A stretch of DNA of 46,812 bases from Nitrososphaerales archaeon (GTDB lineage Archaea > Thermoproteota > Nitrososphaeria > Nitrososphaerales > Gagatemarchaeaceae): contig JACWAI010000075.1 in the NCBI GenBank assembly GCA_014874415.1, forward strand, positions 1-46,812. Direction: 5' to 3'. Below, piece by piece: positions 8,679-42,889 of this stretch. The position numbers and the translations under genes were made by a program. The notes beneath the pieces were generated by a model. The model did not search any database. It had not been told where the DNA came from and saw only the letters and a list, made by a program, of their open reading frames with translations. Positions within the stretch are counted from its first letter, which is position 1; every line of letters starts with the position of its first letter.

Positions 8679-9937
8679 ATGTTGCAGGCTACCAAATCGG
8701 TCGTGCAGCCTTACAGAAGCGAAGCCGTCGACGGCCTGCTCGGTGAATGCCTCACCCTCACGTATAACGCGATGTGCTACGGAGAGGGGCACAATGTCAC
8801 CAATCGAAAAAAGATGAAGGAGTTCTACAGGTCGCTGAAGGAGGTCGAACTCCCGTCCTGCTACAAGCGGGCTGTAATCACCCGTGCGTGCGCCATCCTG
8901 AAGAGCAGGATGAAGAGCGAAAACCGAGGAGTGGAGACGAAGCACTCCAGACGGCTTAGGCCCATGGTCTGCATAACCTCCGGGTTCTTCGTCACTGCCA
9001 AGGGGAGGCTGTTCATACCTCTGAAGCGTGACGTCTACGTGGACGTCCTCCGAACCACCACGCCCGGGAGATGATCCGAGGCAGGAACCTCAGGAGCCTG
9101 ACCGTCACGCAAGACTCGCTGTCGCTGTGTTATTCGCAAGAGATCGGGGAGATTAGGGCGAAGACAGTCTATGGCGTGGACAGGAACGAGAAGAATCTCA
9201 CTTTCGGGAACGCGGAGCGCGTAATCCAGCTGGACATGTCGAAGACTGTCAGTATCAGGCAGACTACACGCGAGATAGTGGGGTCTTTCAAGAGGAACGA
9301 TGTTAGGATAAGAAGAAAGATCGCTTCGAAATATTGGAAGAGGGCGAACCACAGGACGGACCAGATACTTCACGCAGCCACTAACCTCGTAGTCGGCGTG
9401 GCTCTTAGGAGCGACGCCGCCATCGCCCTCGAAGACCTGAAGGACATCAGGAAGATGTACCAGAAGGGAAACGGGCAAGGAACGGGATACCGCTTCCGAC
9501 TGAACTCTTGGCCATACGGGAAGGCAGGGAAGATGCTGGAATACAAGTCGGCATGGAAGGGCGTCACCATAATCTCGCTTACAAAGTCTGAAACCAGAGG
9601 GTCCTCGTCGGTGCATCACGCGTGTGGGGAGAGGCTCCACAGACCCCAGAGGGGCGATGCTGTGCACGCGAGGATGCTCTGGTGCCAGAAATGTAAGGTG
9701 TGGGTGGACAGGGACGTGAACGCGGCCGTTGTCCTCTCGCAGAGGGGGCTGGCAAGGTTCGCCAGCTCCCTTCCCAGACCACAGGACGGCCCACAACCAA
9801 CTGTGGCCAGGGAAGAAGGGCTGGCAAGTGAAGCGATGAAGGGGAACGGGACGACGACCCTGATCCTCAGAGCAGATGCCAGCAAGTTGACTGGTGGCGC
9901 GGCGGTTGACAGACCGCCGAATGGCCCTACAAGTTGA
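8679..9937 (+). pseudogene. tnpB: IS200/IS605-family TnpB (OrfB), split by a frameshift
   Basis: Two overlapping frames, 8679-9074 (131 codons) and 9071-9937 (288 codons), together make one TnpB, the RNA-guided RuvC nuclease of IS200/IS605 elements. The first holds the N-terminal domain. The second holds RuvC-I (GVDRNEKNLTFG), RuvC-II (IALEDLKDIR) and RuvC-III (DRDVNAA), all with catalytic acidic residues intact. A Zn-finger pair CQKC precedes RuvC-III, but the first pair reads HHACG, with histidine in place of the first cysteine. Reading back from ATG 9071, the second frame continues NHHARE in place of the first frame's RTTTPGR, so one missing base near 9050 explains the split. There is no tnpA. 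The tail GLASEA...ILRADASK is typical of archaeal TnpB. Confidence 0.8.
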
Positions 9938-33901: not shown

Positions 33902-35017
33902 ATGCAGCCCCCTTGGACTCAAAGTATCGACTTCTCCAAGAAACCCATCTTCGTATGCTGGGAGACGACGAAGTCTTGCCTGCTTGCGTGCAGGCACTGC
34001 CGGGCCAGGGCGATAAGGAGGAGCCTACCCGGAGAGCTAGACCACCAAACGGGGCTACGTTTGATCGACCAGGTGAGGGAGTTCGGAGAGCCATATCCTG
34101 CACTGCTTTTGACTGGAGGCGACCCGCTCATGCGGCAGGATGCGATGGACCTCATCGAATATGCGAAGGGGAAGGGGATCTACGTGGCCGTGGCCGCCAG
34201 CGTCACCCCCCTGCTCACGGTCGATGCGCTCAGGCGGATGAAGGAGCTGGACGTGGACATCGCATCGGTGAGTCTGGACGGGGCTACCCCTGAGACGCAC
34301 GACGCATTGAGGGGCGTCCCAGGTACATGGGCCGCCACCATCAGGGCCGTCCGGGACGCGAAGTCTCTGGGCCTGCGCATGCAGGTCAACACCACCGTCA
34401 TGAAAAGCAACATCTGGGAGCTAGCAGATATTTTCCACATCGTCAAGGAAGCGGGCGCTGTCGCCTGGGAGGTGTTCTTCTTGGTGAAGACCGGGCGCGG
34501 AGCCAGCCTCGAAGACCCTGGGCCAGCGGAATGCGAAGAGGTGATGCACTTTCTGTACGAGGCTACCCGATACGGGATCCCCGTGAGGACCTCCGAAGGG
34601 CCGCAGTTCAGGCGTGTGTACATGCAGCGCCAGAAGGGGATGGGCGCGCCGAAGGGAAGACTGTATGCTCACCTCGCAGGGAGGCTGCGCGAACTGGAAG
34701 GGGAACCCTCCGGGGCCCCGGCCCTGAGGCTCAACGCGACCGGAGACGGGAAAGGGGTGATCTTCGTGGGTCACGACGGCGAGGTCTATCCGAGCGGATT
34801 TCTCCCCGTATCTTTGGGGAACGTCACCAAAGAAAGCCTGGTGGACATCTACACCTCCCACCCGACCCTCGTGGGACTGAGGGACCCTTCGAAGCTAGAG
34901 GGAAACTGCAGGATATGCGATTATGGGAACATCTGCGGGGGGTCGAGATCAAGGGCTTACGCAGAGTACAATGACGCGTTCCAGAGCGATCCGGCGTGCC
35001 CATACATTCCGGCCTAG
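33902..35017 (+). CDS. Radical SAM/SPASM protein (AhbC/AhbD/NirJ-like), haem operon
   Basis: A 371-residue radical SAM enzyme. The N-terminal CLLACRHC (C-x3-C-x2-C, around residues 26-33) binds the SAM-reducing [4Fe-4S] cluster, preceded by the VCWETTKS motif seen in AhbC, AhbD and NirJ. LLLTGGDPLMR and IASVSLDGATPE follow in the barrel. The C-terminal SPASM-like region CRICDYGNICGGSRSRAYAEY and DPACPYIP matches this family and could hold a second cluster. AhbD converts Fe-coproporphyrin III into haem b anaerobically. AhbC and NirJ act on sirohaem-derived haems. It lacks the extra cysteine of HemN. First gene of the haem operon, with TATA and inverted repeat upstream. Confidence 0.86.
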   Translation: MQPPWTQSIDFSKKPIFVCWETTKSCLLACRHCRARAIRRSLPGELDHQTGLRLIDQVREFGEPYPALLLTGGDPLMRQDAMDLIEYAKGKGIYVAVAASVTPLLTVDALRRMKELDVDIASVSLDGATPETHDALRGVPGTWAATIRAVRDAKSLGLRMQVNTTVMKSNIWELADIFHIVKEAGAVAWEVFFLVKTGRGASLEDPGPAECEEVMHFLYEATRYGIPVRTSEGPQFRRVYMQRQKGMGAPKGRLYAHLAGRLRELEGEPSGAPALRLNATGDGKGVIFVGHDGEVYPSGFLPVSLGNVTKESLVDIYTSHPTLVGLRDPSKLEGNCRICDYGNICGGSRSRAYAEYNDAFQSDPACPYIPA

Positions 35018-35057
35018 GGGATGGTTGGGCCTGAAGACCGTGGCGCAGGAAGGGAGC

Positions 35058-36305
35058 TTGCACGAGGTCCAGTCGGCGGGAGAGCGCCGCGTCTCCGTCC
35101 AACTGCTTGCCATCGAGACTTCGTACCGGACGTCAGACCTCGCCTTCCGAGAGAAGCTGAAATCTCTGGATGTCGGACGCCTGACTGCCTCGCTCGGTCA
35201 GCCTAAGGAATTCGCAGTCCTGTCGACCTGCAACAGGTTCGAGGTATATCTCGCGACCCCTTCTCCCGACGCGACTTATACTGAGTTCCTTGAGGCTGTA
35301 CGGAGCCAGACCGGACTCCGGGCGGACTCGGCGTTCTCTCCATTGATAGGGGTGGAGGCTGCGCGCCACCTCTTCATGGTGGCAGCCGGACTCGACTCGG
35401 TCGTGATAGGAGAGCCTCAGGTCCTCTCTCAGGTTCGGGGAGCGGGCATCGAAGCTAGGAAAAGGGGGAACGCGAAGGGCATCTTGTCTCCTCTCTTCGA
35501 CAGGGCGACCAGGGCAGGGTCCAAGGTCAGGTCAAAATACGGCCTGGGCTCGGGCGAGGCATCCCTGAGCACCCTCGCGGTTGACGCCGTGGACCGCCTG
35601 ATGCCCGGCCGCTTCGATGCAATGCTCATCGGAAGCGGAAAGATGATCCAGCTTGCGGCCAGGAGGCTGAAGGGGAGAGCCAGGAAGGTCTACGTGGCTT
35701 CGAGGAGGAGGGCCCTCGGGGGATTCGAGGGAGGCGAAGCGATCAGCTACGGGGACATAGGGCGCACCGCTTCCAGGTGCGACGTTCTGATAGCCGCGAC
35801 GACGGCAAAGCACCCGCTCGTCCTGAAGTCCGACCTGAGGGGAAGGAAGAAGCGGGTGGTGGTGGACCTGGGAATGCCGAGAAACGTGTCGCCATCGGTC
35901 AGGGAGCTTCCCAATGTTCACCTGATCAACCTCGACGACCTGGCAAAGATTGCCCGGCCCCCGAAAACACTCCCCCAGCTCAAAGAGGCCGAATTAACAA
36001 TCTCCCAGGAAGCTTCCGAGTTCTACGACTGGCTAGTCCAGACCAGGCTGTCGTCTACCCTGGCAAACCTCTACGCGTGGGCCAACGAAGTGAGAGAGGA
36101 AGAGCTCGAGAGGGCTCGCGGCAAGCTGCAGCCCAAGAGCGCGAGAGAGGCCCGCATCCTGGACGCCATGGGGAGGAGAATAGTGAGCAAGCTGATGGCC
36201 AGGCCTGCAGATTTCGCTCGGAGAGAGAATCGCAAGCTGGACGAGGACGATAAGCTCGAGCTCCTGGGGGCAATTTTCGGATTGGGCGACCGCTCTGAAA
36301 ACTAG
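35058..36305 (+). CDS. hemA: Glutamyl-tRNA reductase
   Basis: Catalyses NADPH-dependent reduction of glutamyl-tRNA(Glu) to glutamate 1-semialdehyde, the first step of C5 haem synthesis. The N-terminal catalytic domain has VQLLAIETSYRTSDLAFREKL and the nucleophile in LSTCNRFEVY (about C58). GLDSVVIGEPQVLSQVR is the family signature, MLIGSGKMIQLAARRL the NADPH domain and VVVDLGMPRNVSP follows. The C-terminus forms the dimerisation helix. The frame is open well upstream. TTG 35058, preceded by gaaggga, gives the best fit (415 aa); GTG 35040 and TTG 35025 are alternatives. It follows the radical SAM gene by 40 bases and its 3' end overlaps hemC. Confidence 0.93.
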   Translation: MHEVQSAGERRVSVQLLAIETSYRTSDLAFREKLKSLDVGRLTASLGQPKEFAVLSTCNRFEVYLATPSPDATYTEFLEAVRSQTGLRADSAFSPLIGVEAARHLFMVAAGLDSVVIGEPQVLSQVRGAGIEARKRGNAKGILSPLFDRATRAGSKVRSKYGLGSGEASLSTLAVDAVDRLMPGRFDAMLIGSGKMIQLAARRLKGRARKVYVASRRRALGGFEGGEAISYGDIGRTASRCDVLIAATTAKHPLVLKSDLRGRKKRVVVDLGMPRNVSPSVRELPNVHLINLDDLAKIARPPKTLPQLKEAELTISQEASEFYDWLVQTRLSSTLANLYAWANEVREEELERARGKLQPKSAREARILDAMGRRIVSKLMARPADFARRENRKLDEDDKLELLGAIFGLGDRSEN

Positions 36306-37218
36306 GCTTCTCCTTGGCACGCGAGGTAGCCCACTGGCGCTGGCACAGACGAACCTCGTCATCGAAAGGCTGAGGCATGTCCATCCGGGCCTTCAGGCCG
36401 TGCCGGTAGCCATCCGGACAATGGGAGACACGCTCCCGCATGACAGGCTGAAGGATGTCGACGGGAAGTCCGCATTCACCGGGGATTTGGACAAGAACCT
36501 TGCCGAGGGCAAGGTGGATGCAGTTGTGCACAGCATGAAAGACCTGCCTTCGGAACTGGACCCGAGGCTGACCATAGCGGCGACCCCGGAAAGGGGGGAT
36601 GCCAGGGACGCGTTCGTCTCGAAGTCCGGAGGGTCCATCCAAAGCCTCCACGGCGGAGACAAGGTGGGGACGTCAAGCGTCAGGAGGCAGGCTCAGCTGC
36701 TGAGGTTGAGGCCAGACATCAAAGTTGTCGAACTTCACGGGAACATAGGCACCAGGCTGGAGAGACTGGAGGGGGGAGACCTGTCGGGGATCGTGCTGGC
36801 GGCCGCTGGCCTGCAGAGGCTGGGGCTCGGTTCCAGGATTAGCCAAACATTCGGGACTGACGAGATCGTGCCAGCAGTCTGCCAGGGGACCATGGCCGTC
36901 GAAGCAAGGAAGGATGACCTGCAGACCCGAGCCCTGCTGGAGAAGATTGACGACCCGCCGACCAGGGCTTCAAGCGAATGCGAGCGGGCCTTCGCAGCGG
37001 CTCTGGGAGGAGACTGCAACGTTCCCCTGGGCGCGTTCGCTGCCATTCAGTCCGGTACGCTGCGCGCGATTGGGATGGTCGCGGACCCCGCCGGGAACGA
37101 GATGGCAAGGGCTGAGGCGGCGGGTCCTCCCGGAGAGGCGGTAGCACTGGGCAGAAGCCTGGCAGCCATGGTAGAAGAGGCGGGCGGGCGGCGGATCTTG
37201 AGGGGGCTCGCGCATTGA
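36295..37218 (+). CDS. hemC: Hydroxymethylbilane synthase (porphobilinogen deaminase), apparent CTG start
   Basis: Polymerises four porphobilinogen molecules to hydroxymethylbilane. The essential N-terminal segment LLLGTRGSPLALAQTNL is encoded at about 36307-36357. DAVVHSMKDLP, RDAFVSK and GTSSVRRQAQLLRLRPD follow, and GGDCNVPLGAF holds the cysteine that anchors the dipyrromethane cofactor. No ATG, GTG or TTG lies in this frame between the TGA at 36193 and the GTG at 36400, which would delete the first 35 residues. I therefore take CTG 36295 (LKTRLLLGTRGS) as the most plausible start, overlapping the hemA stop by 11 bases. A base error is the alternative. Length 307 aa is normal. Confidence 0.9.
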   Translation: MKTRLLLGTRGSPLALAQTNLVIERLRHVHPGLQAVPVAIRTMGDTLPHDRLKDVDGKSAFTGDLDKNLAEGKVDAVVHSMKDLPSELDPRLTIAATPERGDARDAFVSKSGGSIQSLHGGDKVGTSSVRRQAQLLRLRPDIKVVELHGNIGTRLERLEGGDLSGIVLAAAGLQRLGLGSRISQTFGTDEIVPAVCQGTMAVEARKDDLQTRALLEKIDDPPTRASSECERAFAAALGGDCNVPLGAFAAIQSGTLRAIGMVADPAGNEMARAEAAGPPGEAVALGRSLAAMVEEAGGRRILRGLAH

Positions 37219-37961
37219 CTGGGAAGATAGTCGTAGCAAGGTCCAGAGAAGGGAACGCAGAGGTCCAGTCTCGACTCTCGAAGCTGGGGATCGCCTCCGT
37301 CGGAGTGGAGACCATCGTGTTCGGAGAGCCCACTGACCGAACCGCAGTCGACGACGCGATCAAAGAGATGCACGATTACGACTGGGTTGTCTTCACGTCT
37401 CCAAGGGGGGTCGCCGCATTTGCGAAGCGCTCAAAAGAGCTGGCGGTCAAGGTCAATCCCACGAAACCAAGGATGGCCGCAATAGGCTCGAAGACCGCCG
37501 ATGCTCTCGCCGCCAACGGGCTGCGTGCCGATTTCGTGCCAGACGTCTTCCTCGCTTCCGCCTTGGCCGAGGGGATCCCGAGCGAGTTCGGAAAGAGGGT
37601 GCTCCTGCTCAGGGCTGACATCGGGGAGGAGTCCCTTGCTTCCGACCTCGAAGGACGAGGATTCGAGGTCACAGACATTGCAATCTACAGGACCAGGCAC
37701 GCTCCCGGAGTCGAGAAACCGGGACACCTATCCAATGCCCGCATCGTCATCTTCGCCAGCCCTTCGGAAGTGAGGGGGTTCAAGGACAGGGTCGATCAAG
37801 AAGCATTCGCGGCGGTCGCTTCGAAGTCGACCGCGGTCTGCATCGGACCTGTCACAGCCGAGGCCGCGCGAGCCGAAGGGTTCAGGAACGTGGTCTCATC
37901 CGAGGTTCATACGGTCGACGGGCTCGTCGAGAAGGTCAGGGAGGTGGCCACCTGTGCTTGA
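37215..37961 (+). CDS. hemD: Uroporphyrinogen-III synthase
   Basis: A 248-residue HemD that cyclises hydroxymethylbilane and inverts ring D. The family is poorly conserved. Recognisable parts are KIVVARSREGNAEVQSRL, the YDWVVFTSPRGVAAFAKR segment (the SxxG/TSxxGV motif), GKRVLLLRADIGEESL near the domain swap and VCIGPVTAEAARAEGF at the C-terminal domain. The position between hemC and hemB and a TTGA overlap with hemC (37215-37218) support it. The start is therefore TTG. The 3' end overlaps the hemB start by eight bases. Confidence 0.9.
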   Translation: MTGKIVVARSREGNAEVQSRLSKLGIASVGVETIVFGEPTDRTAVDDAIKEMHDYDWVVFTSPRGVAAFAKRSKELAVKVNPTKPRMAAIGSKTADALAANGLRADFVPDVFLASALAEGIPSEFGKRVLLLRADIGEESLASDLEGRGFEVTDIAIYRTRHAPGVEKPGHLSNARIVIFASPSEVRGFKDRVDQEAFAAVASKSTAVCIGPVTAEAARAEGFRNVVSSEVHTVDGLVEKVREVATCA

Positions 37962-38949
37962 GCAGCAGAAGCTCAGGCTCGAGAGCAGAGGGAGGCGCCT
38001 GCGGAGGACAGATGCCATCAGGAGAATCCTGAATGAGACCCGTCTCCACACGGACATGCTCGTGGCGCCCGTGTTCGTAATCGAAGGCACAGGCTTGGTC
38101 GAGGACGTCGAGGGCATGCCCGGGGTTTCACGATACACCGTTGACAGGCTTCCGGCATACCTGGAGAGGTTGACTGGACTGGGGATCCGGAGCGTGCTCC
38201 TCTTCGGTGTACCGGCAGCGAAAGACGACTCGGGGACCGGAGCATACTCGAAAGACGGCGTCATCCCCCGTGCAATCAGGTCCCTCCGCTCTAGCTTCCA
38301 AGAACTCGTCATCATGGCAGACGTCTGCCTGTGCGAATACACATCTCACGGCCACTGTGGAGTGCTCTCAGGCAAAATAGTAGACAACGATAGGACGCTG
38401 CCCCTCCTCGCGAGGGCCGCCTTGGAATACGCAAAGGCGGGAGCCGACGTAGTCGCCCCCAGCGCAATGATGGACGGCCAGGTTCTTGCGATCAGGGCTG
38501 GGCTCGAAGAGGCTGGGCTCGACGACACGATAGTGATGGGATACTCGGCAAAGCACGCTTCCGCGTTCTACAAGCCATTCAGGTCCGCCGCTGGGTCGGC
38601 GCCCTCGTTCGGGGACAGGAGGAGCTACCAGATGCAGCCCGAAAACGTCCGCGAAGCCATGAGAGAGATCGAACAGGACGTCAAGGAGGGTGCTGACATC
38701 GTCATGGTCAAGCCAGCGCTCGCCTACCTCGATGTCATCTCCAGGGCAAGGAAGAGGTTCGACCTCCCTCTCGCGGCCTACAACGTCAGCGGCGAATATT
38801 CGATGGTGAAGGCTGCAGCCCAGAACGGATGGCTCGACGAGAAGGCGGCTGTCCAAGAGATTCTCACCGGGATCAGGAGGGCAGGATCAGATTTGATCAT
38901 CACATACTTCGCTGAAGAAGCGGCGCGATGGCTGAAGGAGGGATGGTAA
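37954..38949 (+). CDS. hemB: Delta-aminolevulinic acid dehydratase (porphobilinogen synthase)
   Basis: Condenses two 5-aminolevulinate molecules to porphobilinogen. The zinc-binding cluster VCLCEYTSHGHCGVL has the three cysteines of zinc-dependent HemB. GYSAKHASAFYKPFR and IVMVKPALAYLDVI contain the two active-site lysines (the latter is the Schiff-base one), and FGDRRSYQM is a conserved substrate loop. Length (331 aa) is usual. The GTG at 37954 overlaps hemD by eight bases. Its TAA stop shares TAATG with the chdC start, showing tight coupling. Confidence 0.97.
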   Translation: MLEQQKLRLESRGRRLRRTDAIRRILNETRLHTDMLVAPVFVIEGTGLVEDVEGMPGVSRYTVDRLPAYLERLTGLGIRSVLLFGVPAAKDDSGTGAYSKDGVIPRAIRSLRSSFQELVIMADVCLCEYTSHGHCGVLSGKIVDNDRTLPLLARAALEYAKAGADVVAPSAMMDGQVLAIRAGLEEAGLDDTIVMGYSAKHASAFYKPFRSAAGSAPSFGDRRSYQMQPENVREAMREIEQDVKEGADIVMVKPALAYLDVISRARKRFDLPLAAYNVSGEYSMVKAAAQNGWLDEKAAVQEILTGIRRAGSDLIITYFAEEAARWLKEGW

Positions 38950-39671
38950 TGGAGGAGCCTGCTACGGAGCAAGCCGCAAGGGAGGCGGGCGCGAGGAAGT
39001 TCATGCGCTATGTCTTCTTCAAAACGGACCGAGATTGGAGGTCGCTTCAGGAGGACGAGAAGCAGCGGGGGTCAGGGGAATTCCTCGGCGTCCTCGAAAG
39101 GTATTCGAAGAGGCTCAGCCTCCGATGCTACAGCCTGGTCGCGACCCGGGGGGACGTGGATTTCATGATCTGGATCATAGCCGACGACCTTCAGCCTGTC
39201 CAGGAGTTCGTCTCCGAATTGCTTTCCACAGGTCTTGGAAGGAAGCTCGACGTGGTCTACTCATTCCTTGCAATGACAAGGAAATCGAAGTACATCGGCT
39301 CGCACAGACGCGCGGGCCAGGAGAGGGCTGAAACCGAAGGAAGACCGCACGGCGCGAAGTACGCCTTCGTATATCCTCTCGTGAAGAAGCGCGAGTGGTA
39401 CAAGGTACCCTTCGTCGAACGGCAGAGGATCATGGCCGAGCACTTCAAGATAGGTCACAAGTACCCTTCGATCAAGATCAACACAGGATATTCTTTCGGC
39501 CTCGACGACCAAGAGTTCGTGCTCGCCTTCGAAGGGGACAGCCCAGGGGAGTTCCTCGACCTCGTGGAGGAGCTGCGGTCGTCGGACGCAAGCAAGTACA
39601 CCGAAAGAGAGACGCCGATTTTCACCTGCGCCGCAGTCGACCCGTCAACGATGGTCAAGCTTCTAGGTTAG
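38949..39671 (+). CDS. chdC: Coprohaem decarboxylase (HemQ/ChdC, chlorite dismutase family)
   Basis: A 240-residue chlorite-dismutase-family protein. AFVYPLVKKREWYKVP has the YP-x-x-K-x-R-x-WY motif with the catalytic tyrosine of ChdC, EHFKIGHKYPSIKINT has the proximal haem-ligand histidine (E-H-x3-G-x-x-Y pattern), and SFGLDDQEFVLAFEGD and KYTERETPIFTC are typical. It converts Fe-coproporphyrin III to haem b using peroxide, the last step of the coproporphyrin-dependent pathway. ATG 38949 shares TAATG with the hemB stop and has ggaggg six bases upstream. An in-frame ATG at 38928 is less likely. Confidence 0.94.
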   Translation: MEEPATEQAAREAGARKFMRYVFFKTDRDWRSLQEDEKQRGSGEFLGVLERYSKRLSLRCYSLVATRGDVDFMIWIIADDLQPVQEFVSELLSTGLGRKLDVVYSFLAMTRKSKYIGSHRRAGQERAETEGRPHGAKYAFVYPLVKKREWYKVPFVERQRIMAEHFKIGHKYPSIKINTGYSFGLDDQEFVLAFEGDSPGEFLDLVEELRSSDASKYTERETPIFTCAAVDPSTMVKLLG

Positions 39672-39675
39672 AAGC

Positions 39676-40959
39676 ATGGGGCGCGTCAAATCAGCTGCCC
39701 TCTACAGGAGAGCGTCGAAGGTAATGGTTGGAGGTGTCTCGAGCCCGGTACGAGCGTTCAAGTCGGTCGGCGGGACCCCGCTGTTCTTCACCAAGGGGAA
39801 GGGGGCGCACGTCTGGGACGAGGACGGCAACAGGTACACAGATTACGTCTGCTCCTGGGGCGCCCTGATACACGGCCATGCCCAGCCAAGCGTCGTTCGA
39901 GGCGTCGAGAGACGGACCAGAAAGGGCTCTTCGTTCGGCGCCCCCTCGAGGGAAGAGGTAACCCTCGCCGAGCTGATTTGTAGGTCTGTAAGCTCAATCG
40001 AGAAGATCAGGTTCGTGAACTCGGGAACCGAAGCGACGATGTCCGCCCTGCGCCTGGCGAGGGGATTCACCAAGAGGGCGAAGGTGGTCAAGTTCGAGGG
40101 TTGCTACCACGGCCACGCCGACCCCTTCTTGACCAAGGCGGGTTCAGGGATGGCTACCCTCGACCTCCCCGCGTCAGCCGGCGTCACTTCGGGGGAGATC
40201 GCGGACTCGGTGACCCTGCCCTTCAACGACGCCGGAGCGGTGGAGTCCGAGTTCAAGAAGGAAGGGGACGAGATAGCGGCGGCCATAGTAGAGCCTGTGG
40301 CTGGGAATATGGGAGTCGTGCCCCCGGCGAAAGGATTCCTTGACGCGTTGAGGAGGGCGTGCAGTGACAGCGGCTCGCTATTGATTTTTGATGAGGTCAT
40401 AACTGGGTTCAGGGTGGGAATGGGAGGGGCGCAGGCGCTCTACGGGATCAAGCCTGACATTACCACGCTTGGGAAGATAATCGGGGGTGGCTTTCCGGTT
40501 GGAGCCTACGGAGGAAGGAAGGACATAATGAGCCTGGTCTCTCCCGAGGGGCCTGTCTACCAGGCGGGAACCTTGTCGGGCAACCCCGTGGCGATGGCGG
40601 CGGGCATAGCGACGCTCAGGTTGCTGAACGTGAAGACATATGGAAGGCTAGAACGGACTTCGCGTGACCTCGAAGAGGGCTTGGTCTCCGTGGCTGGTCG
40701 CATAGGACCCCCCCTGGTCGTCAACAGGGTGGGGTCGATGGTCGGTGTCTTCTTCTCATCCCGCCCTGTGACGAATTTCAAGGACGCCAAGGAGGCGGAC
40801 ACGAAGGCTTACGGCAGATTCTTCTGGGGCATGCTGAAGGGAGGAATTTATCTCCCCCCCTCCGCGTTCGAGACCCTGTTCGTTTCATCGGCCCACACAT
40901 CCGCCGACATTGCGATGACCGTTAATCTGGCGGCTGTTTCCATGAGGAGGCAGAGCTAG
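39676..40959 (+). CDS. hemL: Glutamate-1-semialdehyde 2,1-aminomutase
   Basis: A PLP enzyme of fold type I that converts glutamate 1-semialdehyde to 5-aminolevulinate. GGVSSPVRAFKSVGGTPLFF and CSWGALIHGHAQP mark the N-terminus. FEGCYHGHADPFL contacts PLP, LIFDEVITGFRVG holds the PLP aspartate, and TTLGKIIGGGFPVGAYGG carries the PLP-binding lysine. 427 residues is the normal length. It starts four bases after chdC and ends five bases before the hemE TTG start, so it is within the operon, although in the pathway it acts just after HemA. Confidence 0.97.
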   Translation: MGRVKSAALYRRASKVMVGGVSSPVRAFKSVGGTPLFFTKGKGAHVWDEDGNRYTDYVCSWGALIHGHAQPSVVRGVERRTRKGSSFGAPSREEVTLAELICRSVSSIEKIRFVNSGTEATMSALRLARGFTKRAKVVKFEGCYHGHADPFLTKAGSGMATLDLPASAGVTSGEIADSVTLPFNDAGAVESEFKKEGDEIAAAIVEPVAGNMGVVPPAKGFLDALRRACSDSGSLLIFDEVITGFRVGMGGAQALYGIKPDITTLGKIIGGGFPVGAYGGRKDIMSLVSPEGPVYQAGTLSGNPVAMAAGIATLRLLNVKTYGRLERTSRDLEEGLVSVAGRIGPPLVVNRVGSMVGVFFSSRPVTNFKDAKEADTKAYGRFFWGMLKGGIYLPPSAFETLFVSSAHTSADIAMTVNLAAVSMRRQS

Positions 40960-40964
40960 GCGAC

Positions 40965-41990
40965 TTGGAGAGCACCTTCGTCGACGCCTGCAACAGACGG
41001 GGCGTGGACCATACTCCTGTGTGGTTCATGCGCCAAGCGGGTAGATACCTTCCGAGCTACAGGGAGCTGAGGACAGGTAAAGGGATACTGGAGATAGCGA
41101 AGGACCCGGAGCTGGCGTCGGAGGTGACGGTCGACCCGGTGAGGCAGCTCGGGGTGGACGCGGCTGTGCTATTCGCCGACATAATGCTCCCGCTGGAAGG
41201 TATAGGGGTGAAATTCAAGATAGAAGAGAACCTGGGGCCTGTGATTGAGAACCCCGTTAGGACTTCAAGGGAGGTGGAGGCACTGGGGGAATTCGACCCC
41301 GAAGAGCACGTATCGTATGTACTTGAGACGATAAGGAGAGCCGTCGGAAAGCTGAACGGAACGCCGCTCATCGGATTTTCGGGGGCGCCCTTCACCATCG
41401 CGAGCTACCTTATAGAAGGAGCGCCGAGCAGGGATTTCCAGAAGACAAAGCGAATGATGTACTCCGAGCCCGAGGCCTGGGAGGTGCTGATGGGAAAGCT
41501 CACCAAACTCATTGTTCGCTACCTCCAGGCGCAGATCAAGAGCGGAGTCGGCGCCGTCCAGCTTTTTGACAGCTGGGCCGGATGCCTGTCCCCTGGCGAC
41601 TACGATGCGTATGCGAAGGACTACACCGGGCAGATATTCAGCGCTATCCGGGGACCCGTCCCGACGATCCATTTTTGCGCCGACTCGTCCTCCCTCATCG
41701 AACAGTTCGCCTCGACCGGTTGTGACGTCATCAGCGTCGACTGGAGGGTCCCGATAGATTCAGTGTGGGAAAGGACGGGGAACACCATGGCGGTCCAGGG
41801 GAACCTAGACCCGGCCTTGGCGGCGGTGGGCGGGCTCGCGATGGACAAAGGAGTCATGGAGATAATGAAACAGGCAGCAGGGAGAAAGGGGCACATTTTC
41901 AACCTGGGACACGGCGTGATGAAAGAGACCTCCCCCGAGAACCTGAAGAAGATCGTCAGGAGGGTGCACGAAGGGAGAAACGCTAGATGA
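40965..41990 (+). CDS. hemE: Uroporphyrinogen decarboxylase
   Basis: Converts uroporphyrinogen III to coproporphyrinogen III. The signature PVWFMRQAGRYLPSYRELR (near residues 18-36) has the arginines that bind substrate carboxylates, LFADIMLPLEGIGV and GFSGAPFTIASYLIEG follow, and the catalytic aspartate lies in ADIMLP. SVDWRVPID and FNLGHGVMKETSPENL are also diagnostic. The TTG start has an aggagg about 12 bases upstream. The stop overlaps the hemH start by ATGA (41987-41990). Its presence shows that the cluster uses a coproporphyrin route rather than the sirohaem route. Confidence 0.97.
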   Translation: MESTFVDACNRRGVDHTPVWFMRQAGRYLPSYRELRTGKGILEIAKDPELASEVTVDPVRQLGVDAAVLFADIMLPLEGIGVKFKIEENLGPVIENPVRTSREVEALGEFDPEEHVSYVLETIRRAVGKLNGTPLIGFSGAPFTIASYLIEGAPSRDFQKTKRMMYSEPEAWEVLMGKLTKLIVRYLQAQIKSGVGAVQLFDSWAGCLSPGDYDAYAKDYTGQIFSAIRGPVPTIHFCADSSSLIEQFASTGCDVISVDWRVPIDSVWERTGNTMAVQGNLDPALAAVGGLAMDKGVMEIMKQAAGRKGHIFNLGHGVMKETSPENLKKIVRRVHEGRNAR

Positions 41991-42889
41991 AGGGAATCAT
42001 GCTCATGGCCTATGGAGGCCCGACGTCGCTGGACCAGGTCGAGGCATACCTTACCCACATAAGAGGAGGGAGGAAGCCTTCGCCTGATCAGCTCGAGGAT
42101 CTGGTCGGGAGGTACAGGGCGATCGGAGGTTCTTCACCGCTGCTCGAGATAACGAAGAGACAGGCCAGCGGATTGGAAGAGGCATTATCCCGACCGGGGA
42201 ATGCCGTGAAGGTCTACGCTGGGATGAAGCATTCGCCCCCGTTCATAGGCGACGTCTTCGGTCAGGCCGTCAAGGATGGGATAACTGAATTGCTTTGTAT
42301 CCCCCTGGCGCCGCACTATTCCGCCATCAGCATCGGAGGGTACGAGAAGGCAGTGTCGGAGGCGAATGCAGCGCTCGGGAGCCCCGTCAGGGTTACCTTC
42401 GTGAGGTCTTGGCACAGGAACCCCAAGCTGATTGCGATGTGGGCGGGACGGGTGAGGAAAGCCGCTACTGCGGCAGGACCTGGCGCTTCCCTCGTCTTCT
42501 CCGCGCACAGCCTCCCAGAGCGGATCTTGAGGGAGGGGGACCCGTACAAGGACCAACTCCTGGAAACGTCAGGGCTCATCGCCAAAGAGGCCGGTTGGAA
42601 GGACCGGAGCTTCACTTTCCAGAGCCAGAGCAACACAGGGGAGCCGTGGCTCGGGCCGGACATAGTCGACCACCTGCAGAGCCTTTACGAAGGAGGGGCG
42701 AAGGGGTTCATAGTGGCCCCCATAGGCTTCGTCTCGGACCACCTCGAAATCCTCTTCGACATAGATGTGGAGTGCTTGAACTGGGCAAGAGAAAGGGGAG
42801 TGAGGCTCGTCAGGTGTGAGTCCCCTAACGACTCTGCCGAAATGGTTGGCGCTCTCCGCCTGATTGCCTCTGAGAACGGATTCGCCTGA
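41987..42889 (+). CDS. hemH: Ferrochelatase (probably coproporphyrin ferrochelatase, CpfC type)
   Basis: Inserts Fe2+ into a porphyrin. GIMLMAYGGPTSLDQVEAYL is the N-terminal signature, FSAHSLPERIL has the catalytic histidine, TFQSQSNTGEPWLGP the substrate loop, and VSDHLEILFDIDVE the conserved glutamate of the second metal site. Together with ChdC, the expected substrate is coproporphyrin III (the enzyme then named CpfC). The ATG overlaps the hemE stop. Length 300 aa is typical for the monofunctional bacterial-type enzyme. The cluster ends with this gene and a 102-nt gap follows. Confidence 0.95.
   Translation: MKGIMLMAYGGPTSLDQVEAYLTHIRGGRKPSPDQLEDLVGRYRAIGGSSPLLEITKRQASGLEEALSRPGNAVKVYAGMKHSPPFIGDVFGQAVKDGITELLCIPLAPHYSAISIGGYEKAVSEANAALGSPVRVTFVRSWHRNPKLIAMWAGRVRKAATAAGPGASLVFSAHSLPERILREGDPYKDQLLETSGLIAKEAGWKDRSFTFQSQSNTGEPWLGPDIVDHLQSLYEGGAKGFIVAPIGFVSDHLEILFDIDVECLNWARERGVRLVRCESPNDSAEMVGALRLIASENGFA

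Follow-up and report, generated by a model that had tools for sequence, protein, structure and literature searches.

A coproporphyrin-type haem operon in a Nitrososphaerales archaeon, with ChdC and a candidate AhbD-like radical SAM protein as possible terminal enzymes

The 46,812-nucleotide contig JACWAI010000075.1 (hereafter the window), contig 60 of the 1.69-Mb, 91.6% complete assembly GCA_014874415.1 of a Nitrososphaerales archaeon (family Gagatemarchaeaceae), carries nine contiguous genes on the + strand (33902–42889) in the order radical SAM, hemA, hemC, hemD, hemB, chdC, hemL, hemE, hemH; coordinates and NCBIfam/Pfam matches bear out the order given in a first-pass annotation of this DNA. 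The G+C content is near 60%. The block consists of a conserved eight-gene core (hemA-C-D-B-chdC-L-E-H) and a variable ninth gene, that for the radical S-adenosylmethionine (SAM) protein. We propose, with a probability of about 70%, that the operon encodes a coproporphyrin route to haem b with two endings, ChdC acting with oxygen or peroxide and an AhbD-type radical SAM protein acting without oxygen. The genes, with the curated NCBIfam cut-offs where these are exceeded, are:

33902–35017, + strand: radical SAM/SPASM protein of family TIGR04053, proposed AhbD-like anaerobic coprohaem decarboxylase (TIGR04053, 463 bits, cut-off 395; motifs; tree)
35058–36305, + strand: hemA, glutamyl-tRNA reductase (TIGR01035, 224 bits, cut-off 209.6; frame open from 34923, with 35040 and 35058 as uncertain candidate starts; homology sets in at residue 62 of that frame)
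36295–37218, + strand: hemC, hydroxymethylbilane synthase (TIGR00212, 295 bits, cut-off 164; candidate CTG start, first in-frame GTG at 36400)
37215–37961, + strand: hemD, uroporphyrinogen III synthase (Pfam HEM4, 170 bits)
37954–38949, + strand: hemB, porphobilinogen synthase (NF006762, 471 bits, cut-off 297)
38928–39671, + strand: chdC, coprohaem decarboxylase of the peroxide type (Pfam Chlor_dismutase, 187 bits; solved-structure match 9mhr; key residues)
39676–40959, + strand: hemL, glutamate-1-semialdehyde aminomutase (TIGR00713, 590 bits, cut-off 527)
40965–41990, + strand: hemE, uroporphyrinogen decarboxylase, UroD (TIGR01464, 408 bits, cut-off 303)
41987–42889, + strand: hemH, ferrochelatase of the coproporphyrin type, CpfC (TIGR00109, 213 bits, cut-off 124.6; solved-structure matches; Tyr9)

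The family scores for UroD, CpfC and ChdC support the earlier assignment of the operon to the coproporphyrin type. HemD passes its Pfam model and not the NCBIfam one (best 89 versus 275 bits). ChdC likewise passes PF06778, the chlorite-dismutase fold family (187 versus 25 bits), and does not reach the cut-off of the HemQ equivalog NF042928 (134 versus 235 bits); its best solved-structure match is the coproheme decarboxylase 9mhr (105 bits). Residues Y149, K153 and H172 of ChdC, which we take to be the catalytic tyrosine, the lysine four residues on and the proximal histidine, are conserved in 20/20 loci read. A catalytic tyrosine of ChdC, Tyr145, is also given in a passage of PMC10548856. Against solved structures, HemH scores 259 bits with the ferrochelatase 1doz, 255 bits with the coproporphyrin III ferrochelatase 9kta, and no more than 94 bits with mitochondrial enzymes. 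Its Tyr9, conserved in 15/15 loci, is presumably the first-loop tyrosine that marks the coproporphyrin-type ferrochelatase.

The description of the genes as almost all overlapping is correct for four junctions (C/D, D/B, B/chdC and E/H; 4–22 bases) and not for chdC/L and L/E, which are gaps of 4–5 bases, whilst an overlap of 95 bases between the radical SAM gene and hemA exists only if hemA is counted from its first ATG. Because hemA homology starts only near 35100, a later start (candidates GTG 35040 and TTG 35058), and with it a short gap after the radical SAM gene, appears likelier. The hemC frame contains no ATG, GTG or TTG where homology begins (36280–36420); translation possibly starts at the candidate CTG at 36295, or else the sequence may contain an error.

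Fifteen of the 20 other same-family genomes with ChdC were read at locus level. The eight hem genes are collinear, in the same order, in 11 of these 15 loci, and a chance arrangement is therefore excluded; of the other four, two run off the end of their contig, hemH is inverted in L149, and in L154 only hemA, chdC, hemE and hemH appear at this place. All eight genes are also found in L168, from another family, with a radical SAM gene beside the operon. Within the family, the radical SAM gene lies beside the operon, on the same or the other strand, in 4/15 loci, its product being 65–69% identical to that of the window in L154 and L155 and 46% identical in L159 and L163, which carry a different TIGR04053 type. 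The two-option ending within one operon is not supported in the form first proposed, in that the radical SAM gene is no stable member of the operon. In L158 the hemA frame is 65 bases away from a gene resembling a CBS-domain gene; the same interval in the window is about 2.7 kb long and holds the radical SAM gene and one opposite-strand gene.

The absence of CgoX (HemY), first noted for the window, extends to the whole genome, in which no match exceeds the cut-off (the best covers 34 positions at 19 bits; control, 4/14 genomes over cut-off), and to the 61 genomes searched, the window's own included (0/61 over cut-off, with two weaker matches in G205). As CgoX is over cut-off in 0/61 genomes, its absence is unlikely to reflect an assembly gap, and we regard the gap as genuine. 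Candidates for the missing oxidase that were tried and set aside, HemG not being among those searched, are CgoN/DUF1444 (none over cut-off in the window genome, the only one searched for it; control 1/14) and HemJ (PF03653; over cut-off in 0/61 genomes, with two matches below it; control 2/14). Nor does the genome contain a full HemN-type match, in line with the earlier observation on the window: TIGR00539, the one model used, gives one partial match at 43 bits against a cut-off of 205. Neither the CgoX nor the CgoN oxidase of a complete coproporphyrin-dependent pathway was found over cut-off.

The first-pass annotation had named a full set of ahb genes elsewhere as evidence that this operon is not the main pathway. 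Such a set was not seen: AhbC, the enzyme by which the sirohaem-dependent (Ahb) pathway was judged, has no match at E 1e-40 in the window genome (control 3/14), AhbA, AhbB and CysG not having been searched; across the 61 genomes it exceeds the 650-bit cut-off in none, and scores of about 500 bits are confined to G287 (549) and G300, where a contig end truncates the match (493). Apart from the window protein, the genome has no full-length AhbD-like radical SAM protein; three further matches score 41–61 bits. ChdC is over cut-off in 33/61 genomes, and TIGR04053 in 19/61, or 24/61 at 1e-60. Five genomes from other families of the same order (G003, G012, G190, G205 and G215; L164, L165 and others) have ChdC but show neither AhbC nor TIGR04053 (at 1e-40 and 1e-60, respectively), nor a CgoX that exceeds its cut-off.

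The radical SAM protein matches TIGR04053 over 366 of 366 positions. Among neighbouring families it scores highest with AhbD (266 bits), followed by NirJ2 (190), NirJ1 (163) and AhbC (160), other SPASM families being far lower. Its cysteines form a CX3CX2C motif (C26/C30/C33) and a CX2CX5CX20C motif (C336/C339/C345/C366). The radical motif comprises C26, C30 and C33 only; the HemN-type fourth cysteine, which we take as the point of comparison, is lacking, as had been noticed from the sequence, and an identity as HemN was rejected on this ground. According to passages of PMC10452713, CX3CX2C and CX2CX5CX20-38C occur in all 39 AhbDs compared, and non-methanogen AhbDs (except that of Metallosphaera sedula) have Glu and Ser where methanogens have the AuxI cysteines. 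By that definition, both cysteine motifs of the AhbD non-methanogen subgroup are present here, with Glu/Ser/Ser at the three AuxI positions (E232, S298 and S348); S348 and S298 were assigned by spacing (37 residues separate S298 from C336; published spacing 36–37), and E232 by alignment within TIGR04053, not to M. barkeri itself. S298 is replaced by Gly in L159, L163 and L168. Alignment A1 does not include L049.

In a 62-row tree the window protein groups with those of L058, L154 and L155 (100/100), then with L061 (99/91), inside the TIGR04053 clade; the starred clade includes proteins of Aeropyrum, Pyrodictium and Haloferax, whilst the AhbC and NirJ rows are split off by starred forks, by which an identity as AhbC or NirJ was ruled out. 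Branching with families unrelated to haem synthesis, named beforehand as an outcome that would tell against the proposal, was not seen. L061, sister to the window's own group, adjoins an AhbC-like gene (543 bits versus the cut-off of 650; NirJ1, 537 bits), a placement that supports AhbD because AhbD is expected next to an AhbC-like gene. Judged by score, motif and tree, the protein is a TIGR04053 member, close to AhbD and distinct from AhbC and NirJ, in agreement with the earlier suggestion that it may be AhbD-like. L058, with the second-closest radical SAM protein (68%) followed by a hemA-like frame, is a contig titled Spirochaetaceae and is probably a mis-binned archaeal contig.

The TIGR04053 protein of Haloferax larsenii (501 bits) is encoded among genes for a halocyanin, a cbb3-annotated oxidase and a multicopper oxidase. 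In H. volcanii, as described in passages of PMC5746218, the ahbD gene HVO_2144 has nirK, norB and genes for blue copper proteins as neighbours, and its deletion strongly reduced anaerobic growth alone, which was restored by haem. The two neighbourhoods seem equivalent, and since the H. larsenii protein would thus sit in an HVO_2144-like setting, AhbD-like coprohaem decarboxylation is the best reading of the function of the window protein. Thermus plasmids carry TIGR04053 beside nitrite reductase. A 2.9-kb record labelled as a Campylobacter jejuni plasmid (L263, NZ_CP029056.1) also holds a TIGR04053 gene and may be a stray assembly piece.

In the proposed pathway, HemA, HemL, HemB, HemC and HemD would produce uroporphyrinogen III, from which UroD would form coproporphyrinogen III; this would be oxidised to coproporphyrin III by another activity or by air, and CpfC would then insert iron to give coprohaem. 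In the last step two propionates of coprohaem would be converted to vinyls, by ChdC with oxygen or peroxide, or, without oxygen and through S-adenosylmethionine chemistry, by the radical SAM protein, which would be an AhbD-type enzyme having cysteines for a single auxiliary cluster, AuxII. The gene order, the families, the motifs, the tree and the lack of CgoX and AhbC in the assembly are observations; the substrate, the product and the oxygen-dependent division of labour, in which both ChdC and the radical SAM protein would act on coprohaem, we infer.

The gene heads an operon without CgoX, in a genome and a set of 61 genomes with no CgoX over cut-off, and it could be supposed that the radical SAM protein itself oxidises coproporphyrinogen III in place of CgoX, with ChdC as the only ending. 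Other TIGR04053 loci speak strongly against this. Amongst the 80 named loci, which are the best 80 of at least 523 relatives and not a random sample, 21 have CgoX no more than 310 bases from TIGR04053, so that neither replaces the other there, and 7/7 of the CgoX neighbours scanned pass the TIGR00562 cut-off. A further argument is the single-contig, 100% complete genome G254, in which the operon is present and neither CgoX (at 1e-8) nor TIGR04053 (at 1e-60) gives a match. AhbD, NirJ and AhbC, the families closest by score, have tetrapyrrole side chains as their targets. The loci with CgoX directly beside TIGR04053 led us to reject the protein as a CgoX substitute, a role we consider highly improbable. 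A four-helix membrane protein, discussed below, takes the position beside TIGR04053 in 5 of the 80 loci by tblastn, and both neighbours occur together in 0. A CgoX-like match in L130 (2154 bases away) and a weak membrane-protein match in L083 (profile only, 73 bits) were not counted; as some contigs were met twice (L044 = L115, L045 = L113, L047 = L126, L197 = L132), the locus lists are not independent.

Several of these loci are themselves hem operons. L107, L108 and L123, contigs of metagenome-assembled genomes titled Micrarchaeota, have hemE, hemH, hemC, hemA, CgoX, TIGR04053, hemL and hemB, with no chdC by tblastn on the 18–21 kb stretches (chdC could lie elsewhere). L131 has hemH-like, hemE-like, TIGR04053, membrane protein, hemL, hemC, hemA and hemB genes, with no chdC found on the stretch, and in L044, L045, L047, L048 and L051 the membrane protein lies between hemE and TIGR04053, neither chdC nor hemH turning up on these stretches. 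A CbiX-type protein follows TIGR04053 in L044 and L045; that of L044 (5823–6323, − strand; 58 bits), a short chelatase within the hem operon, is possibly an alternative iron-inserting enzyme. In L102, chdC, CgoX and hemE form one cluster and TIGR04053 stands beside a second CgoX on the same stretch. Because of the L107, L108, L123, L131 and L044-type operons, a role of TIGR04053 as a UroD-derived coprohaem ending without ChdC gains support. We tentatively extend this to a wider scheme, which we hold to be somewhat less probable than its contrary: TIGR04053 would be the oxygen-independent ending of the coproporphyrin pathway in bacteria and archaea, with oxidation by CgoX or by a new four-helix membrane dehydrogenase, iron insertion by CpfC or a CbiX-like chelatase (L044, L045) and haem formation by the AhbD-type enzyme; the window operon would be a form with this ending and ChdC on one transcript.

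A number of observations weigh against an AhbD-like ending in this operon. The protein does not reach the cut-off of the AhbD equivalog TIGR04545 (266 versus 500 bits), and the tree contains no AhbD above that cut-off, the nearest row scanned being L242 at 427; the TIGR04053 proteins of Thermus (352) and H. larsenii (343) fail it too, and, given the latter, the model seems not to cover the TIGR04053-type subgroup. AuxII-only AhbDs are, according to passages of PMC10452713, so far without biochemical study, and the link to HVO_2144 is made through its described neighbourhood, not through direct sequence comparison. In L131, hemE and hemH are under their cut-offs (237 versus 303 and 86 versus 125 bits). 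The window-type protein shares 41–48% identity with the TIGR04053 type that accompanies the membrane protein in the same family. In 44 of the best 80 loci none of the genes looked for lies nearby, matches under half the query length having been dropped (L112), but many of the stretches are short. Finally, of the 18 genomes of the window's genus with ChdC, nine have TIGR04053 over cut-off and nine do not, and the protein is therefore dispensable.

The last two points would also fit a protein that does something else, acting perhaps on a modified haem or a peptide, and stands by the operon incidentally, as would its varying position (same strand, divergent or unlinked) and the scores, far lower, with other SPASM families. 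This we consider unlikely, given that 4/4 window-type members read (window, L058, L154 and L155) adjoin hemA or sit one small frame from it, and that TIGR04053 is elsewhere linked with early hem genes, hemE, hemH or CgoX. The AhbD-like ending remains our preferred reading.

For the oxidation of coproporphyrinogen III, the lead candidate for an unrecognised oxidase, and a candidate only, is the membrane protein of about 160 residues found beside TIGR04053. Four long helices are predicted (mean pLDDT 91.8); the protein resembles CopD, DUF2269 or UPF0093, mostly weakly, L131 alone passing Pfam CopD (35 versus 32 bits), and a fold search against the PDB gave 0/192 matches at E < 0.001. It adjoins the TIGR04053 gene in 14 of the 19 genomes with TIGR04053 over cut-off; in G282 this is the second copy (G282:C3:8123-9184), which has an in-frame TAA, an intact window-type copy lying by the hem operon. 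At E < 1e-38, a threshold chosen after the list had been seen, 15 of the 61 genomes, which are related and not independent, have both proteins, 4 the radical SAM protein only, 3 the membrane protein only and 39 neither (Fisher p 3.5e-8); at 1e-20 the counts are 15/4/10/32 (p 7e-5). G291 (radical SAM part-match, 300 bits) was counted without the radical SAM protein and G268 (partial protein at a contig end, 8e-15) without the membrane protein in the former table, and seven genomes whose membrane-protein matches range from 1e-21 to 1e-30 count as lacking it at 1e-38 and having it at 1e-20. Pairings occur in several archaeal lineages (L191–L195, L197 (= L132), L198, L200, L202–L204, L159, L163, L168, L131, L126, L113 and L115).

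That this protein performs the missing oxidation, and has been lost from or left unassembled in the window genome, would accord with its co-occurrence with TIGR04053, its occupation of the place of CgoX and its position between hemE and the radical SAM gene in the five loci named above. Nevertheless we find it rather doubtful for the window operon. The one relative in the window genome is weak (29.9 bits) and lies, in L138, among genes that are, by eye, not haem genes; ChdC-only genomes such as G254 have no strong one, so the protein cannot serve all; and there are relatives that neither accompany TIGR04053 nor lie near haem genes, strong ones without TIGR04053 being present in G283 and G288, in the latter beside cytochrome-oxidase-like genes (by eye). 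The weak Pfam matches, apart from CopD in L131, and the lack of a PDB fold match at the threshold used also count against it.

Oxidation by air without an enzyme, for which we would give similar and equally modest odds, is consistent with the failure of CgoX, CgoN and HemJ to exceed their cut-offs, and the ChdC branch needs oxygen or peroxide in any case; the CgoN paper notes a non-enzymatic conversion, typically oxygen-requiring. It would not, however, serve the oxygen-free branch, and another enzyme may act, HemG not being among those searched. Free porphyrins are moreover harmful.

A frame resembling an OrfB/TnpB-type transposon protein (by eye) is open elsewhere in the window (9071–9937).

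The sirohaem route is the usual one in archaea. Two endings in one archaeon are already in print, so that they are no novelty in themselves: H. volcanii uses PitA (ChdC) aerobically and AhbD (HVO_2144) anaerobically, according to passages of PMC5746218, and chdC is given for nearly all haloarchaea and ahbD for two-thirds in those of PMC8305020. The window genome resembles H. volcanii in having ChdC and an AhbD-type ending, the H. larsenii protein being likewise of TIGR04053; it differs in that UroD and CpfC are present, AhbC was not found and both endings lie in one gene block, whereas PMC5746218, as far as its passages go, describes uroD, cgoX and cpfC as absent, ahbC as present and the loci as separate. 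As in the bacterial coproporphyrin-dependent pathway, UroD, CpfC and ChdC share one operon with the early genes, but CgoX is missing, the host is archaeal and a TIGR04053 protein is added. Both cysteine motifs and Glu/Ser/Ser are shared with the non-methanogenic, AuxII-only AhbDs in the passages of PMC10452713; those AhbDs end the sirohaem route, unlike the window protein, which is encoded in a coproporphyrin operon without AhbC. Co-location of ahbD with hemY/hemH/hemQ or ahbABC is stated in a passage of PMC10548856, citing Bali 2011 and Dailey 2015; the window likewise places an AhbD-type gene beside coproporphyrin-route genes, but without hemY (CgoX), in an archaeon and with chdC. Thermoplasma and Picrophilus, in the passages of PMC3004389, have hemE and hemH without the known oxidases (HemF/N or HemG/Y), which is similar to the window genome, where CgoX/HemY and HemN (TIGR00539 only) were searched and HemG was not; those three genomes have no recognisable ahb-nir genes, unlike the window operon with its AhbD-like gene, and that survey could not settle which route they use.

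In a survey of 2,978 archaeal genomes, a passage of PMC11459464 reports the coproporphyrin pathway as complete in some Halobacteria and one Ca. Hydrothermarchaeota genome. Passages of PMC10640624 on Gagatemarchaeaceae genomes mention haem-copper oxidases, and a haem synthesis route was not met in them. In the literature searched, which covers few subscription papers, we found no published description of this operon, no paper on TIGR04053 by name and none linking HemJ with CopD. AhbD beside coproporphyrin genes is thus already in print, as are two endings in one archaeon, whilst the combination without CgoX was not found described.

The operon places bacterial-type late haem genes in an archaeal family, in place of the sirohaem route, and offers one operon in which the two known kinds of coprohaem decarboxylase could be set directly against each other. 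It supplies testable members of the AuxII-only AhbD subgroup, and it narrows the question of how coproporphyrinogen III is oxidised in archaea with UroD and CpfC but without CgoX.

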